Source: an uncultured Nitrosomonadales bacterium (lineage in GTDB: Bacteria; Pseudomonadota; Gammaproteobacteria; Burkholderiales; Gallionellaceae). Taken from it: 32,901 nt of DNA. The position numbers and the translations under genes are program-made. This document shows, one piece after another, positions 24,003-32,901 of the stretch. Below the pieces are notes generated by a model. It searched no databases. It saw only the letters and a program-made list of their open reading frames with translations, and was not told the DNA's origin. Location of the stretch: positions 1 through 32,901 of the forward strand of contig CAITJF010000100.1 in assembly GCA_903892645.1 (NCBI GenBank), in the 5' to 3' direction. Every line of letters starts with the position of its first letter. Within the stretch, counting starts at the first letter, position 1.

Positions 24003-24047
24003 TGGTGCTGATGAGACGAATCGAACGTCCGACCTACTGATTACGAA
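24003..24047 (-). repeat. Left attachment site: displaced 3' half of tRNA-Thr
   Basis: On the minus strand it reads from the anticodon loop TTCGTAA through a complete T-arm (GGACG TTCGATT CGTCT) to the CCA end. The 5' half is missing, so it is not a functional tRNA. It matches the right-end tRNA over 45 bases with five differences, all in the T-stem and all preserving pairing. In the Campbell model this is the original host 3' end, pushed 8.8 kb away by integration. Confidence 0.88.
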
Positions 24048-24152
24048 CCGTGCTTGTAAACTTTTTAAATTAATTTAATCAATCGCTTGTAACGCTTGCC
24101 AAATTTAAACCCAGCCTCAAACAACCCCAAACAACGGGGTTTGCATCTTGTC

Positions 24153-24260
24153 ATGGCACAATTATGGCACAGTCTGGCGTTAGCCAGTCTGTTTCCTTAT
24201 TCGTACAAGAGCATCGCTTTTGTGCCAGTTAAACCACCACAGTCTGGCTCTGCCAGTCTG
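24153..24260. repeat. Putative integrase/excisionase arm sites at the left end
   Basis: ATGGCACAATTATGGCACAG (24153-24172) is matched at 19/20 positions by 32769-32788 near the right end. It is followed by four copies of CAGTCTG at 24170, 24185, 24240 and 24254, in two pairs, each pair enclosing a GGC...GCC mini-hairpin. Clustered short repeats near an att core are typical of arm-type sites; function is inferred. Confidence 0.5.
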
Positions 24261-24332
24261 TGACCACGCCTTCACAGGTGCGTAGCATTTGTGGCTGTTG
24301 AATTATCGCCCCATGTCCCTTATAGTGCGGTC

Positions 24333-24500
24333 ATGGCTCCGAAATCTCTGCTCCAACATAACCCCCACTTGCGCAATGCACAGGAATATCAGCGCGCCTT
24401 GCGTGCCAGTGTGCTTTCCTCGATTGCGATTGAAGGTGTCAGAAAAGCTGCGGAACGCGCACTTAACAACTTAACCAGCAAGGTGGTGAAACATGACTAA
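24333..24500 (+). CDS. 55-residue protein with SSxAxEG motif, first gene of the TA operon
   Basis: 55 residues from ATG 24333 (a GTG at 24291 could add 14). Helical and basic. HNPHLRNAQEYQRALRASVL is followed by SSIAIEGVRKA, which fits the [S/T]xxxE[G/N] motif of the inhibitory helix that blocks Fic enzymes. It overlaps the DUF433 gene by 8 bases, so the three genes are probably one operon. No obvious ribosome-binding site. It may be a third antitoxin-like component or a relic of a Fic-system antitoxin; a broken Fic gene lies 0.65 kb away on the other strand. The family is not firmly recognised. Confidence 0.5.
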   Translation: MAPKSLLQHNPHLRNAQEYQRALRASVLSSIAIEGVRKAAERALNNLTSKVVKHD

Positions 24501-24714
24501 TTCACGTATCACACTAGACCCCCTCAAACGTGGCGGACGTCCTTGCATCCGTAATCTGCGCATCAGCGTTTATGACGTTCTGGACATGCTGGCCGAAGGA
24601 ATGAGTGAGGCGGACATCATCGAAGACTTTCCTGAACTCGAAACTGCCGATATTCGCGCCTGCCTGGCCTTTGCTGCTGATCGTGAGCACAACCTTTACA
24701 CCGTAGCGGTGTAA
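24493..24714 (+). CDS. DUF433 antitoxin-type protein
   Basis: 73 residues. A typical DUF433 sequence: ITLDPLKRGGRPCIRNLRIS, then VYDVLDMLAEGMSEADIIEDFPEL and DIRACLAFAADRE. DUF433 is a small winged-helix/HTH fold usually paired with a DUF5615 PIN-like toxin, which it neutralises and whose promoter it represses. Its stop overlaps the next start by one base (TAATG). The match to the family runs over the full length, so it looks intact. Confidence 0.85.
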   Translation: MTNSRITLDPLKRGGRPCIRNLRISVYDVLDMLAEGMSEADIIEDFPELETADIRACLAFAADREHNLYTVAV

Positions 24715-25058
24715 TGAAACTGCTACTCGACGAAAATCTGTCGAGGCGCATCGTCCCCTTCCTGCAAACCGCTTTCCCAGGCTCTTCACAAGTTACCTTG
24801 TTGGGATTGGAAAGCGCAAGCGATGCCGAAATCTGGCAATACGCAAAAACCAACGGTTTCGTGATTGTCAGTCGTGATTCGGATTTTCAGGAACGCTCAC
24901 TCGTAGCAGGCCACCCGCCGCAGGTGGTCTGGCTAAAAATTCCAAACCGCTCCAAAACGGTTGTGCTCAATATTCTGCTCAACCACCACACGGAAATCGA
25001 ACAGGCATTAACTGAGCATAATCGCGCTTGCGTCGAAATTAGCCCCAGTAACCGCTAA
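24714..25058 (+). CDS. DUF5615 PIN-like nuclease toxin
   Basis: 114 residues. DUF5615 (Mut7-C/PIN-like) opens with the acidic MKLLLDENLSRRIVPFLQ (Asp6, Glu7), then DAEIWQYAKTNGFVIVSRDSDF (Asp in SRDSDF) and PPQVVWLKIPN. The acidic residues would coordinate a metal for RNA cleavage. Partner of the DUF433 gene, translationally coupled. Full family length and all acidic positions are present, so it should be functional. Its 3' end lies at the breakpoint where an older Fic gene is cut off. Confidence 0.85.
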   Translation: MKLLLDENLSRRIVPFLQTAFPGSSQVTLLGLESASDAEIWQYAKTNGFVIVSRDSDFQERSLVAGHPPQVVWLKIPNRSKTVVLNILLNHHTEIEQALTEHNRACVEISPSNR

Positions 25059-25079
25059 AGAGGTTTCCTTACTCAATGG

Positions 25080-25148
25080 CACACGCCCGCGCGAACCCTG
25101 TTCAAATTGCGCTTCGGTGAGTTGATCGGTGTCGTAGCGAGATGGCAT
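25080..25148 (-). pseudogene. N-terminal fragment of a Fic-family gene
   Basis: The minus strand gives MPSRYDTDQLTEAQFEQGSR followed by GRV before resemblance stops. This matches the beginning of many cell-filamentation (Fic/DOC) proteins, which start near RYDT...EAQFEPGSRGRVL. The catalytic HxFx(D/E)GNGR part is absent. The ATG overlaps the stop of the res fragment (TGATG), so in the ancestor fic followed res in one operon. The rest was lost at the junction with the toxin-antitoxin operon. Confidence 0.55.
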
Positions 25149-25975
25149 CAGTACCCTACCATCAAATCCAGCCGGAAAATCTGATCCGGTGCGTTCTTGC
25201 CATTCGCGTCTTGCCGAATGGTCATAAACCGCCCGCCATCTTCTTGCATCAGCATTACCGGGCGTTTATAGAGCTTGTGGCTTGCCAGCACCTTGTCCAG
25301 TGTGTCGCTGCTATTCAGCAAGTGGTCGCCCTTGGTCTCTGCCAGCAACAGTCCAGCGCCTAACGTGCGTCCGTTTACCTTCACTACAAAGTCTGGGAAA
25401 TATTGCGCGCCACTTGGCAAGATCAATCCGATAGACCACGGCTTGCGCGGCTCGTTGCGGTGCCACCACTCCACCGTCCCGGACAAATCGCTGTCCAGCA
25501 TTTCGGCAAAGGCCATTTCATCCCGGTTCAAATCTGGCGGCATCACACCATACACATTCAAGCGCGAAGTACGCGCACCAGATGGCAGCTCAATGATGTC
25601 CGGCAATGCCGAGGTGTCCATCAACTCGGCATATTGGGCAGCACATTCGCGTGCGGCCTGTCGAATTAAGTTGGGAAATGCCACCAGAATCAAATCAAGA
25701 ACCAATTCAAGCTCGCGCTCGTTGCACTCAAACCCGCGCACTTCATATTCCGATTGCAGCCGCTTAATCAGCACTGCATGCAAATCACGCGGGTCGAGGT
25801 AATCCGGTTCAAACAAAACGCGATGCGCACGACGCGCAATTTCTGCTTCGGATATCCGCGCCTGATATTTTGTGTCGATCACAGTGCGAGTAAAAATCTC
25901 CTCTTCGCGCCGAATCACCGTTGTTTTTGCGCGTCGGCCTTCGCTCAACTCTTTATCGCCAATCGCAACTTTGCC
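25148..25975 (-). pseudogene. C-terminal fragment of a type III restriction (Res) subunit
   Basis: About 275 residues read open to the stop at 25148. The segment TVEWWHRNEPRKPWSIGLIL and the PD-(D/E)xK nuclease core (PD then, 18 residues on, E-T-K) are typical of the endonuclease end of type III Res proteins. The N-terminal DEAD/helicase part, some 600 residues, is missing: upstream of about 25975 the sequence switches to an opposing reverse-transcriptase fragment. Reading beyond that point to an ATG at 26086 is antisense to that fragment. Without ATP motor domains it is not expected to work. Confidence 0.75.
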
Positions 25976-25979
25976 GCCA

Positions 25980-26417
25980 ATACAAGCTAAGCTGGCACAA
26001 GAGAGTATTGTGTACTCACGATACGTAGATGACATATCAATTTCGTCAAAATTATTTCTCTCCGATGTAAAGCAAACCGCAATCATTGCGCAAGTATATG
26101 GAATGCTAAAACAGCATGGCTACAAGGCCAAACGTCGCAAGCACGAGATATTTACAAGTGGAAGAAGGATGCTTAGCACAAAATTATTGGCAAATCGAAA
26201 GCCAGCACTCCCATCCAATGAGCGTCAGAAAATTCGTGCAGCTGTCTACTCTCTTGAGCAGCGGATTACATCAGGAGAAACTGGTGCAGGAATCAAAAAG
26301 GAATTAAATCGAGTAACCGGTCGTGTGGCTACGCTTGGAACACTCCATGCAACGGAAGCAATGAAACTTAAATCTAGGCTTCACGATATCCGTACTTTAC
26401 TAGCCAGACAAACTTAA
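25980..26417 (+). pseudogene. C-terminal fragment of a retron/defence-type reverse transcriptase
   Basis: About 145 residues. YSRYVDDISIS contains the catalytic YVDD (26022-26033). It is followed by LKQHGYKAKRRKHEIFTSGR and a thumb-like SNERQKIRAAVYSLEQRITS to the stop at 26417, as in retron and related bacterial reverse transcriptases. The fingers and first part of the palm are missing, replaced by the opposing res fragment. With no N-terminus, start codon or visible msr-msd RNA upstream it is a relic. Which reverse-transcriptase class it came from cannot be settled from this piece. Confidence 0.72.
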
Positions 26418-26494
26418 TTTCCTTCCGCCTACTCTCATCCCACCGTCTGATAGAATTCGCATCCTGCACCTACCACGCGAAAATGAGATATTGA

Positions 26495-29296
26495 ATGGCG
26501 TTCACCAGGAACGAAATCCGCAAGCGTCTCACCGCTTTTGCCAAGGAGCAGCAAGGCGCACGCAATGAACGCAGTCAAGCGCAAACCTTCTGGCTGCGTT
26601 TCTACGAATGCTTCGGCATCCGCGCGGAGAGTGCCACCATCTACGAGCAATCGGTAAAAAAGCTCAGTGGCGCGCAAGGCTTCATTGACAGCTTTATTCC
26701 CGGCAAGCTTATCGTCGAACACAAAAGCGCGGGCAAGGACTTGGATGCCGCATTTGACCAAGCCGCAGAATATTTTCTCTCGCTCAAGGAAGAGGAGCGC
26801 CCGCGCTACATCATCACCAGCGATTTTGCGCGCATTCGCCTGTACGACCTGCAAGCGGGTGGCGGCTATCATCAATGCAAGCTCGCCGAACTGCCGAAAA
26901 AAGCCGACTGGTTCATGTTTCTGGTGGAAGGCGAGATTACCGACATCACCGAAGAATCGGAAGCTAACCGCAACGCCGCCTACACCATCAGCAAGCTGCA
27001 CGAAGCCCTGCTGCGCGCCAACTTCAAAGGGCGTGATTTAGAAATATTGCTCACCCGCTTGCTGTTCTGCCTGTTCGCGGAAGATACCGGCGTCTTCGGC
27101 GAAAATGGAATTTTCCTGCGCCTGCTCGAAGCAACCCGTGAAGATGGAAAAGACTTGGGCGGCGCACTCGCCGAACTGTTCCAGGTATTGAACACACCTG
27201 AAGATGAACGCCAGCGCAATCTGGATGAAGCCCTCGCGCGTTTTGCCTACGTCAACGGCAAACTGTTCGCTGACAATGCGCGCATCCCCAGCTTTGACAG
27301 TGAATTGCGCGAACAGCTTATCGCCTGCGCCAGACTGGATTGGAGCGGCATTTCTCCTGCCATATTCGGCGCGATGTTTCAGGGCGTACTGGAAGAGCAT
27401 AACCCCGATGGCGCAGATAGCAGCAATCGCAAGGCCAGCCGCCGTGAGCTGGGCGCGCACTACACCAGCGAGCGCAATATCCTGCGCGTCATCAATCCGC
27501 TGTGCATGAATGACCTACGCGCAGAATTGGCGAAGGTGAAGCGCAACAAAAAACTGCTGGAAGCGTTTTACGACAAACTGCCCACGCTCACCTTTTTTGA
27601 TCCGGCCTGCGGTTGCGGTAATTTTCTCGTCATCGGCTTCCGAGAGCTGCGCCAACTGGAAATGGATACCATCGAAGCAATGAGTGACATAGGCCTTACC
27701 AACGCCAGTCGGGGCGGCCTGCTCGATGTCTCCACTCTGTGCCGCGTCAAGGTCAATCAATTTTATGGCATCGAGATTGACGAAGCCGCCGCGCACATTT
27801 CCCGCGTTGCAATGTGGATCACCGACCACCAGATGAACCTCGAAGCCGCCGAACGCTTCGGTACTACCCGCCCCACCGTGCCGCTGGTGGACAGTGCCAC
27901 CATCGCCTGCGGTAACGCCTTGTGCCTCGATTGGCGTGCCGTGCTGCCGCCGGAGCAATGCAGTTATGTGCTGGGCAATCCGCCGTTCATTGGCCACCAG
28001 TGGCGCACGCCGGAACAAATGCAAGACATGGAATTTATCTGGAGCAACGAAGGCCGTTTCGGTCGTCTCGATTATGTGACCTGCTGGCACAACAAGGCCG
28101 CCGCTTACATGCGAAAAAACCCCGAAGTCAGAACTGCGCTGGTTTCCACCAACAGTATTTGTCAGGGCGAACAAGTCGGCATCCTGTGGAGCTATCTACT
28201 GGCACAGGGTGTGCAGATTCACTTTGCACATCGCACCTTTCAGTGGAGCAACGAAGGCAAAGGTGTAGCCGCTGTGCATTGCGTCATCGTCGGCTTCGGC
28301 CTGAATGAACCGAAGCAGCGCACGATTTTCGACTATGGCGACAACATCAAGGGCGAACCCATTACCATTAACGTGCGCAACATCAACCCCTATCTGGTGG
28401 ACGCGCCCAATGTCATCTTGCCCTCACGCACTGATACACCGCCCGGCCTGCCGCAACTCATCAAAGGCAGTCAGCCCACCGATGGCGGGCATCTCATCTT
28501 TACCGAAGCGGAGAGGGCCGAATTGCTCGCAACCGAACCGCAAGCCGAAAAATGGCTGCGCCCCTATATCGGCGGCGAAGAACTAATTAACGGAGGGCAG
28601 CGCTATTGTCTGTGGCTGAAAGGCATCTCGCCTGCCGAGCTGAGGACAATGCCCAAGATAATGGAACGAGTGCGTGCCGTCGCAGAAATGCGTCTGAAAA
28701 GCCCAACCAAAAGCGTGCAGGAATTCGCCGCCCAGCCCACGCTATTTACTCAGGATCGCCAACCAGATAGAAATTATTTAGCTGTGCCGGAAGTGTCCTC
28801 TGAAAAACGGCGTTTCATCCCTATCGGTTTTTTGTCGAGCAACATCATCGCCAGCAACCAATTGCGAATCATTGTAGGCGGAGCGCTCTACCACTTCGGC
28901 ATCCTGTGCAGCACCATGCACAATGCTTGGTCTCATTACACCTGCGGACGATTGGAAAGCCGCTACCGCTATGAACCAGCCGTCTATAACAACTTCCCGT
29001 GGCCAGACACATCGGACAAACACCACGCAACTATCGAAGCCGCCGCACAAGCCATCCTCGATGCGCGTGCGTTGTATCCAGAATCGTCATTGGCCGATCT
29101 GTACGATCCGCTCTCCATGCCACCGGAACTCGTCAAAGCCCACGCCGCACTGGATAAAGCAGTAGATGCCGCCTATCAATACAAAGGCGGCAAGGATGAT
29201 GCAGCGCGTGTGGCCTTTCTGTTCGAACGCTATCAGCAACTCACCAGCCTGTTACCCACAGCGCCAGCAAAGAAAACCCGTAAGCCGCGTTCTTAA
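26495..29296 (+). CDS. MmeI-type (type IIL) single-chain restriction-modification enzyme
   Basis: 933 residues, the usual length of the MmeI family. One polypeptide both cuts DNA at a distance and methylates adenine. Residues about 1-160 hold the nuclease: Asp65 in FIDSFIPG, Glu75 and Lys77 in VEHKS, the same spacing as the MmeI D70/E80/K82 site as I recall it. A helical spacer follows. The gamma-class methyltransferase has GAHYTSERNI (motif X-like), FDPACGCGNF from 368 (motif I) and NPPF at 495-498 (motif IV). The last third should be the target-recognition and C-terminal domains. Every catalytic motif looks intact. The ribosome-binding site is weak. Cargo of the island; recognition sequence not predictable here. 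Confidence 0.9.
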   Translation: MAFTRNEIRKRLTAFAKEQQGARNERSQAQTFWLRFYECFGIRAESATIYEQSVKKLSGAQGFIDSFIPGKLIVEHKSAGKDLDAAFDQAAEYFLSLKEEERPRYIITSDFARIRLYDLQAGGGYHQCKLAELPKKADWFMFLVEGEITDITEESEANRNAAYTISKLHEALLRANFKGRDLEILLTRLLFCLFAEDTGVFGENGIFLRLLEATREDGKDLGGALAELFQVLNTPEDERQRNLDEALARFAYVNGKLFADNARIPSFDSELREQLIACARLDWSGISPAIFGAMFQGVLEEHNPDGADSSNRKASRRELGAHYTSERNILRVINPLCMNDLRAELAKVKRNKKLLEAFYDKLPTLTFFDPACGCGNFLVIGFRELRQLEMDTIEAMSDIGLTNASRGGLLDVSTLCRVKVNQFYGIEIDEAAAHISRVAMWITDHQMNLEAAERFGTTRPTVPLVDSATIACGNALCLDWRAVLPPEQCSYVLGNPPFIGHQWRTPEQMQDMEFIWSNEGRFGRLDYVTCWHNKAAAYMRKNPEVRTALVSTNSICQGEQVGILWSYLLAQGVQIHFAHRTFQWSNEGKGVAAVHCVIVGFGLNEPKQRTIFDYGDNIKGEPITINVRNINPYLVDAPNVILPSRTDTPPGLPQLIKGSQPTDGGHLIFTEAERAELLATEPQAEKWLRPYIGGEELINGGQRYCLWLKGISPAELRTMPKIMERVRAVAEMRLKSPTKSVQEFAAQPTLFTQDRQPDRNYLAVPEVSSEKRRFIPIGFLSSNIIASNQLRIIVGGALYHFGILCSTMHNAWSHYTCGRLESRYRYEPAVYNNFPWPDTSDKHHATIEAAAQAILDARALYPESSLADLYDPLSMPPELVKAHAALDKAVDAAYQYKGGKDDAARVAFLFERYQQLTSLLPTAPAKKTRKPRS

Positions 29297-29304
29297 TTTC
29301 CACC

Positions 29305-30051
29305 ATGCTTACCCATGTTAAAACTCTATCTCTATGGGAAATCGCCCACTACTGGCATGATGTTGATCCAAGAGAATCCACGACACATCAACTGCCTTTG
29401 AAGGTGCGCGATACGCTGCATGTCTTGTCAATGTGGTGCGGTAAGAAATTGGCCTACCGGGTAGATCGTGAGAAAAACTATCTGGTAGAAGGCCTCAAAC
29501 ATATGCCCCGCTTTACTGCCAGGCATTATCGGCACTCATTCAGGAAGGCGATTGATAGCAAGGTGTTCGGCAAGCGATTTTTCAGCAAGATAGTTATTTC
29601 ACGCAGCCAATTGGCGCGCCTGTGTGACAAACATAGCGAAGAGCTCCCGGTCTTCTGGTTCCCCGACAAGAAATATTCATTCGACACTGCCACTGATGAA
29701 GAATCCAAGGAAATCACCGCTAACGGGCGCTATCAGCTCGTATTGATCTACGATGACACCGATAAGACCTTAGAAACCACCGGCAGCGAGCAACCAATTG
29801 TAGCCACGGTAAATGGCAACGCACTCAAGGCCGCTCAAGCAAGCCACGCTGCAACCAACAAAATAAAATGCCGATTCATCGAATATTATGAGGCAAAAGG
29901 CACTAACTACTCCTGCAGGGAAGCTGCCGCAGGTCATTTTTTTGATTCGTTGCCCGACCCACAAGATAAATTTCACTTCGCCAGCAGGAAAGCAGCTATT
30001 GCCACCCTCTTGCGTGGTCTTCGCAATCACCTGAAGAAAACAAAGTCATAA
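29305..30051 (+). CDS. Unknown protein downstream of the MmeI-like enzyme
   Basis: 248 residues, soluble. The N-terminus SLWEIAHYWHDVDPRESTTH followed by LPLKVRDTLHVL recalls proteins in other integrative elements, but I cannot name the family. The middle has FWFPDKKYSFDTATDEES; the C-terminus is basic (LLRGLRNHLKKTKS) and could be a helix-turn-helix. It begins 8 bases after the mmeI-like stop, so the two are very probably co-transcribed, suggesting an accessory of the restriction system or an element regulator. No catalytic motif is apparent. Confidence 0.65.
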   Translation: MLTHVKTLSLWEIAHYWHDVDPRESTTHQLPLKVRDTLHVLSMWCGKKLAYRVDREKNYLVEGLKHMPRFTARHYRHSFRKAIDSKVFGKRFFSKIVISRSQLARLCDKHSEELPVFWFPDKKYSFDTATDEESKEITANGRYQLVLIYDDTDKTLETTGSEQPIVATVNGNALKAAQASHAATNKIKCRFIEYYEAKGTNYSCREAAAGHFFDSLPDPQDKFHFASRKAAIATLLRGLRNHLKKTKS

Positions 30052-30061
30052 CCCTGCAAGT

Positions 30062-30158
30062 TGCGCCTGCATGCAGACGCAACTCTTGCCAGTAACTCTT
30101 AACCCCGCGAATTTATTGGGTTTGGTGCAGACGCATGTGCGCCTGCATGCAGACGCAA
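30062..30158. repeat. Palindromic direct repeats upstream of rep: candidate origin/nick or operator sites
   Basis: A 21-base unit occurs exactly twice (30062-30082 and 30138-30158). Its core TGCGCCTGCATGCAGACGCA is a palindrome with one mismatched pair, centred on CTGCATGCAG. A half unit TGCAGACGCA lies at 30126-30135, two bases before the second copy. They lie 60-156 bases ahead of the Rep_trans-type gene. Binding by Rep for replication, transfer or autoregulation is inferred. Confidence 0.65.
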
Positions 30159-30217
30159 TAGATAACCATTTTGCATCTTCCGATACTTTCTCCTTCATCA
30201 ACGAACGGAGGTTTATC

Positions 30218-31588
30218 ATGAAGAAAGAATTATCAGGTAATGAGTCAGACTGTTCTGACAATCAAGCAAACATTGAAGCCGCAGCCGTGCGACTGCCCGC
30301 CCGTACACACGCGGAGCGTGTGCCGGACGGGTTGGCGCTCGGCGAGGACTCAAAGGGTACGCCGTCCTGTAACACAGTACCCTCAAACGACAATATAGAT
30401 AAATTCAAGCCGTTGCGGTTCGGGGTTGATAGTCTGTATCTGTCCTATCACGGGCAACTTTTCGATGAATGGAATATTAAGCTGGATGAACTGAAAACCC
30501 AAGCGCAATCGGAAGACGAGGCCGAGCAAGCTCTGGCACAGGTCAGCATCGGATCGCATATTTTTGAAGTCCGAGACAAGGGCATGCCGCGCTTTCCCTA
30601 CGTGCTGGTGGATAACTGCTTTTTCATCAAGATCAACCGCAAGCTATCCAAAACGCTGCCGATGGTGCATGTGCAGATTTCCAGCGAATATCTGGCGGCG
30701 GTTGGTGTGGAAGCTGCCGAGCACGATTTGCGCGTGGTGGTCAATACGCTGGGCATCGTTGACGGTGCAGCAACTGTCAGCCGTGCCGATTTGTTTCTGG
30801 ATTTTGTCTGTGCCGACAATCTTGCCATGATCGAGCAGCCAGACTGGATCACGCGGGCGAGCCTGATGGCGAAATACTACGATTGCCGCTTGGAGCAGCC
30901 TTTCACGGGCTGGGTAATCGGCATGGGTGGCAATTTGCACGCTCGCCTGTATGAAAAGATCGTTGAGATATTCAACAAGTCACGCAAGGCTTATCTGTTC
31001 GGACTGTGGAAAGACAACGGCTGGCAGGTTGGCGAAAAAGTTTGGCGCATGGAGTTCCAAACAGAAAAACAAACGCTCAAGGAATTGGGCATCATCAGCC
31101 TGTCGGATTTGTTGAACCAACAAGCCGCGCTATGGCATTACCTGACGCATGACTGGCTGCGCCTATCCATTCCCAACCCCAATGACACCAAGCGGGATCG
31201 CTGGCCTAACCATGCGCTGTGGGACGCCATTGCCGGGGTGTATGCCCTGCCCCTCGACCAGCCGCGTTTACAACGGTTCAGGCCAGCACGCCTGCCCGCC
31301 GATGAACTGCTGTTCGTACATGGATTGGGTGGCCTCACTTCCTTCATGGCAAGCAGAGGTATTGAAGATTTCGGCGAGGGGTTGGGTGAATATCTCGTGC
31401 AGGCCAAGGAATTCCACGCCAGCAAAGGGGAGCCGTTCCAAAGCTACGTCGGGCGCAAGGTAAAAGCCAAGGCTAGAAAATACAACACCATCGAGAACCA
31501 AAAAAACATGGTTGGTGCGTCGCGCAGATTACAGGAAGAAGCTGAAGCCTACCAGCGTGAGAAGGATGGCGATGATGGAGACGCTTAA
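30218..31588 (+). CDS. Rep_trans-like replication initiator / MobT-type relaxase
   Basis: 456 residues from ATG 30218, chosen because GGAGG lies 6 bases upstream; the open frame further out covers the palindromic repeats. Residues 1-60 are polar and disordered. Then RFGVDSLYLSYHGQL, SRADLFLDFVC, and GWVIGMGGNLHARLYEKIVE (Tyr245) followed by VWRMEFQTEKQTLKELGI match the rolling-circle initiator family that includes plasmid Rep_trans proteins and the NicK/Orf20 relaxases of integrative elements. Tyr245 is the best candidate nucleophile. It would nick the excised circle for replication or mobilisation. It overlaps the excisionase-like gene. Confidence 0.75.
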   Translation: MKKELSGNESDCSDNQANIEAAAVRLPARTHAERVPDGLALGEDSKGTPSCNTVPSNDNIDKFKPLRFGVDSLYLSYHGQLFDEWNIKLDELKTQAQSEDEAEQALAQVSIGSHIFEVRDKGMPRFPYVLVDNCFFIKINRKLSKTLPMVHVQISSEYLAAVGVEAAEHDLRVVVNTLGIVDGAATVSRADLFLDFVCADNLAMIEQPDWITRASLMAKYYDCRLEQPFTGWVIGMGGNLHARLYEKIVEIFNKSRKAYLFGLWKDNGWQVGEKVWRMEFQTEKQTLKELGIISLSDLLNQQAALWHYLTHDWLRLSIPNPNDTKRDRWPNHALWDAIAGVYALPLDQPRLQRFRPARLPADELLFVHGLGGLTSFMASRGIEDFGEGLGEYLVQAKEFHASKGEPFQSYVGRKVKAKARKYNTIENQKNMVGASRRLQEEAEAYQREKDGDDGDA

Positions 31589-31907
31589 TCTTGAACAGGC
31601 CGCCCGTTTTCTCAAGCTGCATCCCGAAGAATTGCGCCGCCGTGCCAAGACTGGCCGTGTGCCTGGGAGCAAACCCGGCAAGTGCTGGGTGTTCATCGAA
31701 CCTGACCTTGCTGATTACCTGCGTTCGCTTTATGCTTCACCTCGGCAAGCGTTGCGAGTGACTCTTGGAAAGGAGGTTTCACCATGTCACTCAAAAGACG
31801 CGGTAACACGTGGCACATTGACTTTGTTACGCCATCCGGTGAACGCATTAGATGCGCTGCTGGCACTGCCGACAAAACCCAAGCGCAAGAATTGCACGAC
31901 AAGCTGA
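31572..31907 (+). CDS. Excisionase-like HTH protein
   Basis: 111 residues from ATG 31572 (31575 and 31566 also possible) with AGGA just upstream. Residues 1-52 (LNLEQAARFLKLHPEELRRR to WVFIEPDLADYLRSLY) are a MerR/excisionase-type winged HTH that recognises DNA with a Lys/Arg-rich turn. The tail overlaps the integrase gene by 124 bases in another frame, unusually long for an annotated pair; a conserved core of about 60-70 residues is what matters. Its start overlaps the rep stop. Expected to steer integrase toward excision. Confidence 0.65.
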   Translation: MMETLNLEQAARFLKLHPEELRRRAKTGRVPGSKPGKCWVFIEPDLADYLRSLYASPRQALRVTLGKEVSPCHSKDAVTRGTLTLLRHPVNALDALLALPTKPKRKNCTTS

Positions 31908-32797
31908 AAGCAGAATCGTGGCGCGTTGTGAAACTGGGAGAAAAGCCCAGGCGTACTTGGGATGAGGCGGCCTATAAATGGCTGATGGAAACCCAGCATA
32001 AAAAATCACATCAACAGGATGTGTCGCAAGTTCGCTGGCTCCAACAGTTTTTTAGGGGCATGTTTCTCGACGAATTGTCGCGGGACGTAATCGCCAAGGT
32101 AGGCGAATTGAAGCTGAGCAAAACGACTCCGGCAACAAGCAACCGTTTGCTCGCTCTGATTCGCTCCATCATGCGCAGGGCAGCTCTTGATTGGGAGTGG
32201 ATAGACAAACCCCCTCTCATAAAGCTGTATCGTGAACCGAAACGGCGTGTGCGTTACTTGACTGCGGAACAGGCGCAAGCACTTCTCCAAGAGCTGCCGG
32301 ATCATTTGGCAGATATGGTGAGGTTCTCGCTGGCAACGGGGTTAAGGCGGGCAAACGTAACAAAGCTGGAATGGTCGCAAGTGGATATTGCGCGGCATGT
32401 TGCGTGGATTCATGGCGATCAGGCAAAAGCGGGAAAGCCGATTCATGTCACGTTGAATGTAACGGCGCTGGACGTGTTGACCAAACAGATCGGGAAACAC
32501 TCAAGGTGGGTTTTTACCTTCAGAGGCAATCCGATTACACAGGTCACCACCAAGGCGTGGTACAAGGCATTAGAACGTGCAGGGATTGAAAATTTCCGCT
32601 GGCATGATTTGCGGCACACTTGGGCGAGTTGGTTAACTCAAAAAGGTGTACCGCTCAACGTGATTCAGGAAATGGGTGCGTGGGAGTCGGCGGAAATGGT
32701 GAGGCGTTATGCTCACCTGGCGCCGGAACAGTTTGCACAGCACTCCAAGGTCATAGATGACGTGCTCAATGGCACAAATATGGCACAGCAGAAATAA
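31784..32797 (+). CDS. int: Tyrosine recombinase integrase
   Basis: 337 residues. Inserts and excises the element at tRNA-Thr. N-terminal arm-binding part (about 1-50), core-binding SAM-like domain (about 55-150), catalytic domain (about 155-325). Catalytic residues: Arg188 (ATGLRRAN), Lys218 region, His274 and Arg277 (HDLRHTW), Trp300 in GAW where many relatives have His, and nucleophile Tyr309 (VRRYAHL). Strong AAGGAGG ribosome-binding site 7 bases before the ATG. The gene ends 36 bases from the tRNA 3' end, the normal place for a tRNA-directed integrase. All residues needed are present. Confidence 0.95.
   Translation: MSLKRRGNTWHIDFVTPSGERIRCAAGTADKTQAQELHDKLKAESWRVVKLGEKPRRTWDEAAYKWLMETQHKKSHQQDVSQVRWLQQFFRGMFLDELSRDVIAKVGELKLSKTTPATSNRLLALIRSIMRRAALDWEWIDKPPLIKLYREPKRRVRYLTAEQAQALLQELPDHLADMVRFSLATGLRRANVTKLEWSQVDIARHVAWIHGDQAKAGKPIHVTLNVTALDVLTKQIGKHSRWVFTFRGNPITQVTTKAWYKALERAGIENFRWHDLRHTWASWLTQKGVPLNVIQEMGAWESAEMVRRYAHLAPEQFAQHSKVIDDVLNGTNMAQQK
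32769..32788. repeat. Right-end copy of the 20-bp ATGGCACA repeat
   Basis: ATGGCACAAATATGGCACAG matches 24153-24172 at 19 of 20 positions. It overlaps the last codons of the integrase (GTNMAQ) and ends 45 bases before the att core. Being present inside both ends of the element, it is a candidate arm-type integrase site. Confidence 0.5.
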
Positions 32798-32833
32798 AAA
32801 GGAGCTAGCAGATTGCGCTAACCCCTTGTTTAT

Positions 32834-32901
<68 letters not shown>

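Follow-up and report, generated by a model that had tools for sequence, protein, structure and literature searches.

The stretch of DNA analysed here, referred to as the window, is 32,901 nucleotides long, and on the evidence of its sequence the region around the rep gene is the core of a putative integrative element of ~8.9 kb (24003-32878), lodged in a tRNA-Thr gene (Table 1). That the element is tRNA-borne had been proposed by a sequence-only reading of this DNA, and is borne out by a 45-bp direct repeat and an Rfam tRNA match, the integrase gene lying beside the tRNA with direct repeats at both ends. The longest exact stretch shared by the two att copies is 18 bp, and they differ at 5 of 45 positions, all of them outside that stretch. 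By eye these differences map to the T arm, consistent with a tRNA 3' half that the element carried over from another host; in other bounded elements, unlike the window, the repeats are mostly identical. The Rfam tRNA (32837-32901, minus strand) is cut by the contig end, and therefore the right flank of the window is not visible. We read it by eye as tRNA-Thr(CGT), and the three integrases closest to that of the window, in L058, L067 and L069, also adjoin a called tRNA-Thr(cgt).

Table 1. Features of the putative integrative element, with their positions in the window.
Feature	Positions	Strand	Basis
att left copy, displaced 3' half of tRNA-Thr	24003-24047	no strand	45 bp, 88.9% identical to 32834-32878
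DUF433 protein, probable antitoxin half	24493-24714	+	Pfam PF04255, E 1.1e-23
DUF5615 PIN-like protein, probable toxin half	24714-25058	+	Pfam PF18480, E 9.2e-35
Reverse-transcriptase fragment with YVDD motif, without 5' part	25968-26417	+	RVT_1 positions 141-201 of 205
MmeI-like type IIG restriction enzyme-methyltransferase, cargo	26495-29296	+	five MmeI Pfam domains
P0005, upstream gene, proposed regulator	29305-30051	+	similar genes at this position in L059 and L063
Palindromic unit 1	30062-30082	no strand	exact repeat, palindrome scan
Half unit TGCAGACGCA	30126-30135	no strand	sequence match
Palindromic unit 2	30138-30158	no strand	exact repeat, palindrome scan
Weak hairpin over rep Shine-Dalgarno (30206-30211)	30190-30211	+	fold; Shine-Dalgarno pairing against shuffles
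rep, Rep_trans-like initiator, 456 aa, predicted catalytic Tyr245	30218-31588	+	fold, active-site motifs
Long imperfect GC-rich hairpin, apex 30313-30315, proposed Rep bind site	30277-30350	+	synonymous recoding test
Conserved nick-type hairpin GGGTAC-GCCGTCCTGTAACACA-GTACCC, proposed double-strand origin	30355-30382	+	conservation, covariation, model R1
xis, HTH_17 excisionase-like	31572-31790	+	Pfam HTH_17, E 6.1e-8; PHROG excisionase, E 1.3e-9
int, tyrosine recombinase	31784-32797	+	Pfam Phage_integrase, E 5.3e-34
att right copy, inside tRNA gene	32834-32878	no strand	direct repeat and Rfam tRNA

Among the remaining genes, the DUF433 and DUF5615 pair (24493-25058) is presumably a toxin-antitoxin system; the DUF5615 protein also matches PIN_10 (E 1.5e-4), under that model's cut-off. 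The RVT_1 match of the reverse-transcriptase fragment (E 5.3e-4) is likewise under the model cut-off, and this fragment, perhaps a retron remnant, adjoins a minus-strand ORF (25148-26086) with no Pfam match. The type IIG cargo gene scores 1119.6 bits with the PADLOC model REase_MTase_IIG, and P0005 matches no Pfam family above cut-off. Conjugation, coupling and T4SS families found no match in the nine element proteins scanned, for which the earlier claim of an element devoid of conjugation genes therefore holds.

For rep, 30218 is a likelier start than the ATG at 30071, given the Shine-Dalgarno CGGAGG (30206-30211) and the way the homologues read; the ATG at 30071, which gives a 505-aa ORF, sits inside the first palindrome. 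Rep matches no Pfam, NCBIfam or PHROG family at E<=1e-3, and for Pfam and NCBIfam this holds even at E<=1. By phmmer, the only PDB sequences matched were glutamate receptors, which we regard as chance, and a profile search gave one weak match, 4cij (E 0.24). Six of 30 aligned Rep sequences match Pfam Rep_trans (PF02486) at E<=1 (best 6.9e-7), and four the phage G2P family (Phage_CRI) at the same threshold; the alignment, A1, omits L008 (broken), L015 (5' cut), L019 (internal stop), and L023 and L026 (start unclear or part only). The structural model of Rep has a mean pLDDT of 78.7, mostly above 84 for residues 61-350 and below 50 for residues 1-58, which are predicted to be disordered. With this model as query, all six Foldseek matches at E<=0.001 are Rep_trans plasmid initiators, the best being 4cij (7.9e-10). 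A second structure aligner gave Z scores of 14.1, 12.6 and 12.1 for three Rep_trans initiator entries, against 7.3 for the next entry; the best alignment (Z 14.1) covers 226 residues with an rmsd of 3.9. TATA-binding proteins appear at Z 6-7, which we take as a common structural arrangement.

The active site of the plasmid initiator RepDE comprises ten named residues, and nine of them, as given in an extract of PMC4797284, are D46, R140, D142, D146, R189, Y191, K193, R212 and E214. These correspond to D71, R189, D191, D195, R243, Y245, K247, R277 and E279 of Rep, a correspondence set by motif order and spacing and not by superposition. Seven of the nine are invariant and two at least 90% conserved among the 30 sequences; the tenth, A144 of RepDE, corresponds to F193. 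Rep thus holds the metal-binding D, D, E set together with the catalytic tyrosine motifs (D71, R189xD191, Y245xK247xxE250 and R277xE279), and Tyr245 is predicted to be the catalytic residue. The strict motif II (T/SxY/ExG) was found within 30 residues before the tyrosine in none of the 30 sequences, and the W/L two positions before R in motif IV is absent from Rep, with V275 there instead. As regards membership of Rep_trans (PF02486), Rep has the RepDE/RepSTK1 fold and lacks the strict motifs II and IV and Pfam significance; since it has no Pfam match even at E<=1, we refer to it as Rep_trans-like, and not as a member. The sequence-only assignment to a Rep_trans-type protein therefore stands, on fold, active-site residues and the weak profile matches of six of the 30 aligned sequences. 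The assignment to MobT is not supported: MOBT proteins, as far as the extracts on them go, consist of an N-terminal HTH joined to PF02486, and in Rep no HTH was matched and residues 1-58 are predicted to be disordered.

Upstream of rep, the palindromic unit TGCGCCTGCATGCAGACGCAA occurs in the window as two exact copies only, and the half unit stands just before the second. The 21-base units are imperfect palindromes, each with 2 mismatches in 20, and a 20-base palindrome pattern allowing up to 3 mismatches has four matches in the window, namely the two sites on both strands, and 0 in 100 shuffles. These units, which the sequence-only reading had pointed out, are thus genuine and commoner than in shuffles. 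They lie 76 bases apart from start to start, with a 55-base spacer; the first begins 10 bases past the stop of the upstream gene and the second ends 59 bases 5' of rep. In the 2.68-Mb genome the 16-base palindrome core is exact at these two sites only, the other matches listed having 2 mismatches. Conservation upstream of homologues, on which the sequence-only reading had staked its origin, was not found: the core is exact in 7/132 loci, all seven being the window locus, and in none of the 125 other loci searched, so that the palindromes are not a conserved origin.

That the palindromic units are nevertheless a nick or transfer origin is very improbable. Their position directly upstream of rep and their exact repetition would suit this role, and the oriT of ICESt3 is, in the portion of PMC6499999 that treats it, the intergenic region beside its MOBT gene. 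In addition, the spacer holds one GTAAC, at 30092, around which the units could pair (90% over 21 bases, 56 apart). However, this GTAAC lies in no hairpin of at least 6 bp with a loop below 60, the loci lacking the core include some with Reps of 78-88% identity, and the conserved hairpin of the published type sits elsewhere. Furthermore, Reps that are 85% alike can have upstream genes lacking BLAST similarity; with upstream genes swapped between similar Reps, an origin placed there would part from its Rep. The palindromes were thus rejected as origin, being unique to the window locus within the 2.68-Mb genome and against the 125 other loci.

The genes upstream of rep were compared across loci. 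A same-strand gene ends 84-166 bases 5' of rep in 24 of 26 loci, counts that omit L066 (none found) and L074 (short distant ORF only), and these genes form three BLAST classes, each with its own spacing to rep. First, class I comprises 19 loci (84-116 bases); a structural model of one of its proteins is too poor for a fold search (mean pLDDT 47.3). Second, class II comprises the window, L059 and L063 (159-166 bases). Third, class III comprises L006 and L058 (148-157 bases). Rep identity shows no correlation with upstream-gene identity (r = -0.04, 276 pairs), and the upstream gene is, as judged from these comparisons, swapped between elements independently of Rep. Inverted repeats with sequences unlike those of the window occupy the interval from upstream gene to rep in 14/19 class I and 2/2 class III loci, some of them being the Shine-Dalgarno hairpin; within class II the window alone has a palindrome, L059 and L063 having none at the threshold used, which was set without a shuffle control. 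Relatives of P0005 were not found in the viral contigs and plasmids. Distant relatives were seen in L076, L080 and L081, near weak integrase matches in a few kb of sequence each; no match to a window-type Rep lies within those few kb, and the upstream gene family may perhaps be independent of Rep. It is tempting to speculate that the palindromes of the window are a binding site controlling rep, for instance an operator for P0005, a reading that we hold only tentatively. The operator is a guess: the spacing ties this stretch to the upstream gene, and the palindromes are absent elsewhere in the class; alternatively, they may be a terminator, a relic or a Rep-related site.

What is conserved instead is a hairpin inside rep. 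The 28-base hairpin begins 137 bases past the rep start in the window, and at +80 to +188 across 26 loci, in all of which it is present. Its loop reads GT'AA in 20 loci, the window included, CT'AA in five and GT'AT in one. The 6-bp stem is perfect in 25 loci, as GGGTAC/GTACCC in 16 and as one of five other fully paired forms in nine, and L036 pairs at five of six positions. Directly preceding TAA (TAT in L066) stands G in 21 loci and C in five, and in every case the complementary base is found six positions later, suggesting that the loop is five bases long and closed by an inner pair. Across the alignment 99.4% of cells are paired, five of the seven pairs have changed on both sides with no one-sided changes, and the covariation score was reached by 0/500 shuffles; one of five covariation measures, further pair types, is no higher than in shuffles (5 vs 5.3).

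Could this hairpin merely mirror conservation of the peptide GTPPSNTVP, which it encodes in frame and which is well conserved in main-clade sequences? This is hardly credible, as the stem survives in just 465/7800 synonymous recodings, and its changes are compensatory, altering both ends of the peptide together (GT..TVP, GA..TAP). Moreover, L035 and L026 have a hairpin of the same type outside rep as delimited, and the peptide falls within the stretch predicted to be disordered. Although residues 1-58 of Rep are predicted to be disordered, their coding DNA folds.

From the 26 loci we built a hairpin model, R1, counting matches at E<=0.01. In the 399 genomes of the order it matches 21 places, 20 of which are the full set of 20 main-clade rep genes found independently by protein, 19 of these being training sequences of R1. 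An independent test was provided by the class sample, with nine matching genomes held out of training: R1 matches nine places in nine new genomes, each at the 5' end of a protein-found rep. Further held-out matches are L037 and G106; the one match away from any rep gene (G093, E 0.0075) came up in both samples. R1 misses the five distant Reps of the order sample, two copies in G727 that are short at the N terminus and, in G496, a tenth new genome, a Rep cut at its 5' end. Among distant Reps, a GC hairpin of 7 bp or more, with [CG]TAA[CT] at its loop, lies near rep in 7/18 loci, against 0.61 expected from shuffles, and 11 have none; the limits used (7 bp, -700 to +300) were chosen after a first look, and the count omits L037 (main-clade), L040 (start cut) and L049 (same match as L048).

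According to the relevant part of PMC9371924, the cutting site of Rep_trans and MOBT proteins is CT'AA, located in a G/C-rich hairpin loop. The loop of the window, GT'AA, differs in its first base, and by analogy the nick position is predicted between T30370 and A30371. Thus, of the earlier proposal of a rolling-circle origin near Rep, the origin itself probably stands, whereas its placement at the palindromes does not.

Rep_trans origins, as described in extracts of PMC13107129 and PMC4797284, combine a bind repeat with a nick hairpin; here the bind repeat may correspond to the long imperfect hairpin that precedes the 28-base one. The folding energy of this long hairpin in the window has a z of -4.06 against synonymous recodings (1/200 as low); 17 of 26 loci, among them the window, have z below -2, and three have a positive z. 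At the Shine-Dalgarno of rep, mean pairing across 26 loci is 0.84 against 0.62 in shuffles, and is reached by at most 5/100 shuffles in 15 of them. This suggests, at the level of sequence comparison, that burial of the Shine-Dalgarno serves translational control of rep. In the window itself pairing is 0.81 against 0.72 in shuffles (rank 26/100, not significant). By eye the hairpin over the Shine-Dalgarno looked conserved, and the leaders in which it is buried (the ~70 bases before rep) include those of L002, L003, L014, L016 and L027.

Relatives of Rep were found in 7 genome contigs, in 19/399 genomes of the order, in 12/369 genomes of the class, in 3 plasmids and in at least 14 loci of viral contigs, two of them main-clade (L036, L037), the latter by a short-pattern scan that was not exhaustive; there are none among 50,697 phage records. 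These collections are samples and were not exhausted. The genome of the window and G015 are in both samples, so that ten of the twelve class genomes are new. A related integrase lies just 3' of rep in 27/28 main-clade loci, a P0002-like excisionase in 17, and an opposite-strand tRNA, of eight amino-acid types, follows in 21; L008, a broken copy, has neither integrase nor excisionase after rep. The integrase of the window is 84, 80 and 79% identical to those of L058, L067 and L069, all of which adjoin tRNA-Thr(cgt), and at most 66% to others, whereas the Reps of these three loci are 41-50% identical to that of the window. Across the sequences compared, the type of integrase is found to go with the tRNA and not with Rep. 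A direct repeat of the tRNA 3' part was found in 15 of 22 tRNA loci, namely 14 main-clade and one distant, the 22 including distant L035; that of L059 is 18 bases only. Of the seven loci with no repeat, the available sequence reaches ~1-6 kb upstream of rep in six and 13 kb in L073. The bounded elements measure 5.0-12.0 kb, the largest resting on an 18-base repeat.

Ten cargo proteins, one of them from distant L035, were picked as likely candidates from 60 and compared with PADLOC, and therefore the eight with a defence-model match at E<=0.01, that of L071 being weak (2.4e-5), do not amount to a rate. The matches include type IIG and type III restriction, TIR, SIR2 and AAA families; a scan of all 60 tallies families and not proteins. 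The cargo proteins of L057 and L062 have no PADLOC defence model match, and by Pfam are RHS proteins and a GT4-conflict/COR protein, respectively. On a plasmid of Indioceanicola, L034, the neighbours of a distant Rep relative are annotated as ATP-dependent endonuclease, UvrD helicase and site-specific integrase; we take the endonuclease and helicase to be Gabija-like. It was also observed that G214 carries L063, L065 and L069, and G221 carries L058 and L060; with different upstream genes and integrases in one genome, such elements may be compatible.

Taking homology, the structural model and analogy together, we consider it probable that the window contains an integrative element in tRNA-Thr that undergoes rolling-circle replication after excision, from an origin embedded in rep. 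First, Int and the HTH_17 Xis would recombine the tRNA repeats and free a circle, as their module and the repeats suggest. Second, Rep may, at a guess, bind near the long imperfect hairpin, and would then nick the loop of the 30355-30382 hairpin at T30370/A30371 via Tyr245, a site type published for Rep_trans and MOBT proteins. Third, the 3' end at the nick would prime leading-strand synthesis, multiplying the circle, and Int would return a copy to the same host or insert one into a new host. The putative origin would thus be embedded in the 5' coding part of rep, where the protein product is predicted to be disordered.

It is unlikely that the element is instead mainly a mobilisable one (IME), with Rep as relaxase for a helper conjugative system and the hairpin as oriT. 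In the pertinent section of PMC9371924, the Rep_trans domain and the nic type are also those of MOBT relaxases, and in ICEBs1 and Tn916 a single protein serves both transfer and replication, as excerpted from PMC5704250. Like the relaxases of these elements and of ICESt3, Rep would act on a nic site in a GC-hairpin loop; however, the N-terminal HTH that marks MOBT was not seen, coupling and T4SS families are unmatched in the nine window proteins scanned, and the hairpin lies inside the gene. A distant Rep homologue takes up most of a 1.7-kb plasmid typed as non-mobilizable, which fits replication. Streptococcal IMEs such as IMESag-rpsI do resemble the window in having a tyrosine integrase and a Rep_Trans gene and no conjugation system of their own, but they belong to Firmicutes and use ribosomal-protein-gene sites, and the extract of PMC5704250 that describes them does not mention an in-gene origin.

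A phage satellite, whose rolling-circle-amplified circle would be packaged by a filamentous or tailed helper phage, is slightly less improbable, although still doubtful. The small build of integrase, AlpA-type HTH_17, replication gene and accessory genes recalls the minimal Vibrionaceae PICMI satellites, which the abridged account in PMC10803314 describes as rolling-circle replicating and packaged as concatemers; the size of the bounded elements and the four G2P-matching Reps also count for a satellite. However, that account gives PICMIs a DUF3987/DUF5906 primase and a fis site, whereas the window has a Rep_trans-like protein and a tRNA site, with no primase family in the nine proteins scanned. 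No packaging or capsid genes were recognised in the scanned proteins, phage records hold no Rep relative, and only two of the viral-contig loci are main-clade. As for a filamentous helper, its marker Zot occurs in 3/16 genomes with the element vs 4/30 without it, and is absent from the genome of the window; this candidate was rejected, there being no excess of Zot in element-bearing genomes.

We return to an integrative replicon with its putative origin in rep, for which known plasmids offer parallels. In pT181 the origin lies within the rep gene. The pT181-family plasmids, with RepDE and RepSTK1 (Rep_trans, PF02486), share with the window the catalytic fold, nine of ten active-site residues, and a nick hairpin with a further inverted repeat nearby. 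They differ in that the element of the window is integrative, with Xis and Int, and has the loop GT'AA, and its Rep is 12-14% identical to RepDE and RepSTK1, with no Pfam match and no strict motif II. The 1.7-kb Mesotoga prima plasmid pTHEBA.01, which encodes a distant Rep (24.6% identity), likewise has a hairpin, GCACCCG-ATCATAGTAATA-CGGGTGC, in the 5' part of its rep, one of the seven counted among distant Reps, but is a free plasmid of another phylum with two annotated genes and no integrase. Rep-Arvir of archaeal viruses such as SNJ2 is, in the excerpted text of PMC13107129, an initiator distantly related to Rep_trans on an integrating element, and the SNJ2-type origin is a nick hairpin with a nearby inverted repeat, as in our candidate; these systems are archaeal, with the origin downstream of rep and a MarR-like domain fused to the initiator. 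Our literature search found no description of tRNA-borne Rep_trans-like elements of this kind, which is not proof of absence.

On balance, we lean towards regarding these elements as an undescribed class of proteobacterial integrative rolling-circle replicons, parked in tRNA genes and shuttling anti-phage genes. Their three independently swapped parts would be, with the same modest confidence, Int with its tRNA, Rep with the in-gene origin, and the upstream gene; with the origin inside rep, Rep and origin would travel together while their surroundings change. For many small islands that sit in tRNA genes and carry defence genes, no means of multiplying or moving is known. Here, with an initiator defined and one nick position predicted within a 28-base candidate origin, this becomes a question that can be tested at the bench, and the hairpin model may provide a route to finding such islands by their origin.
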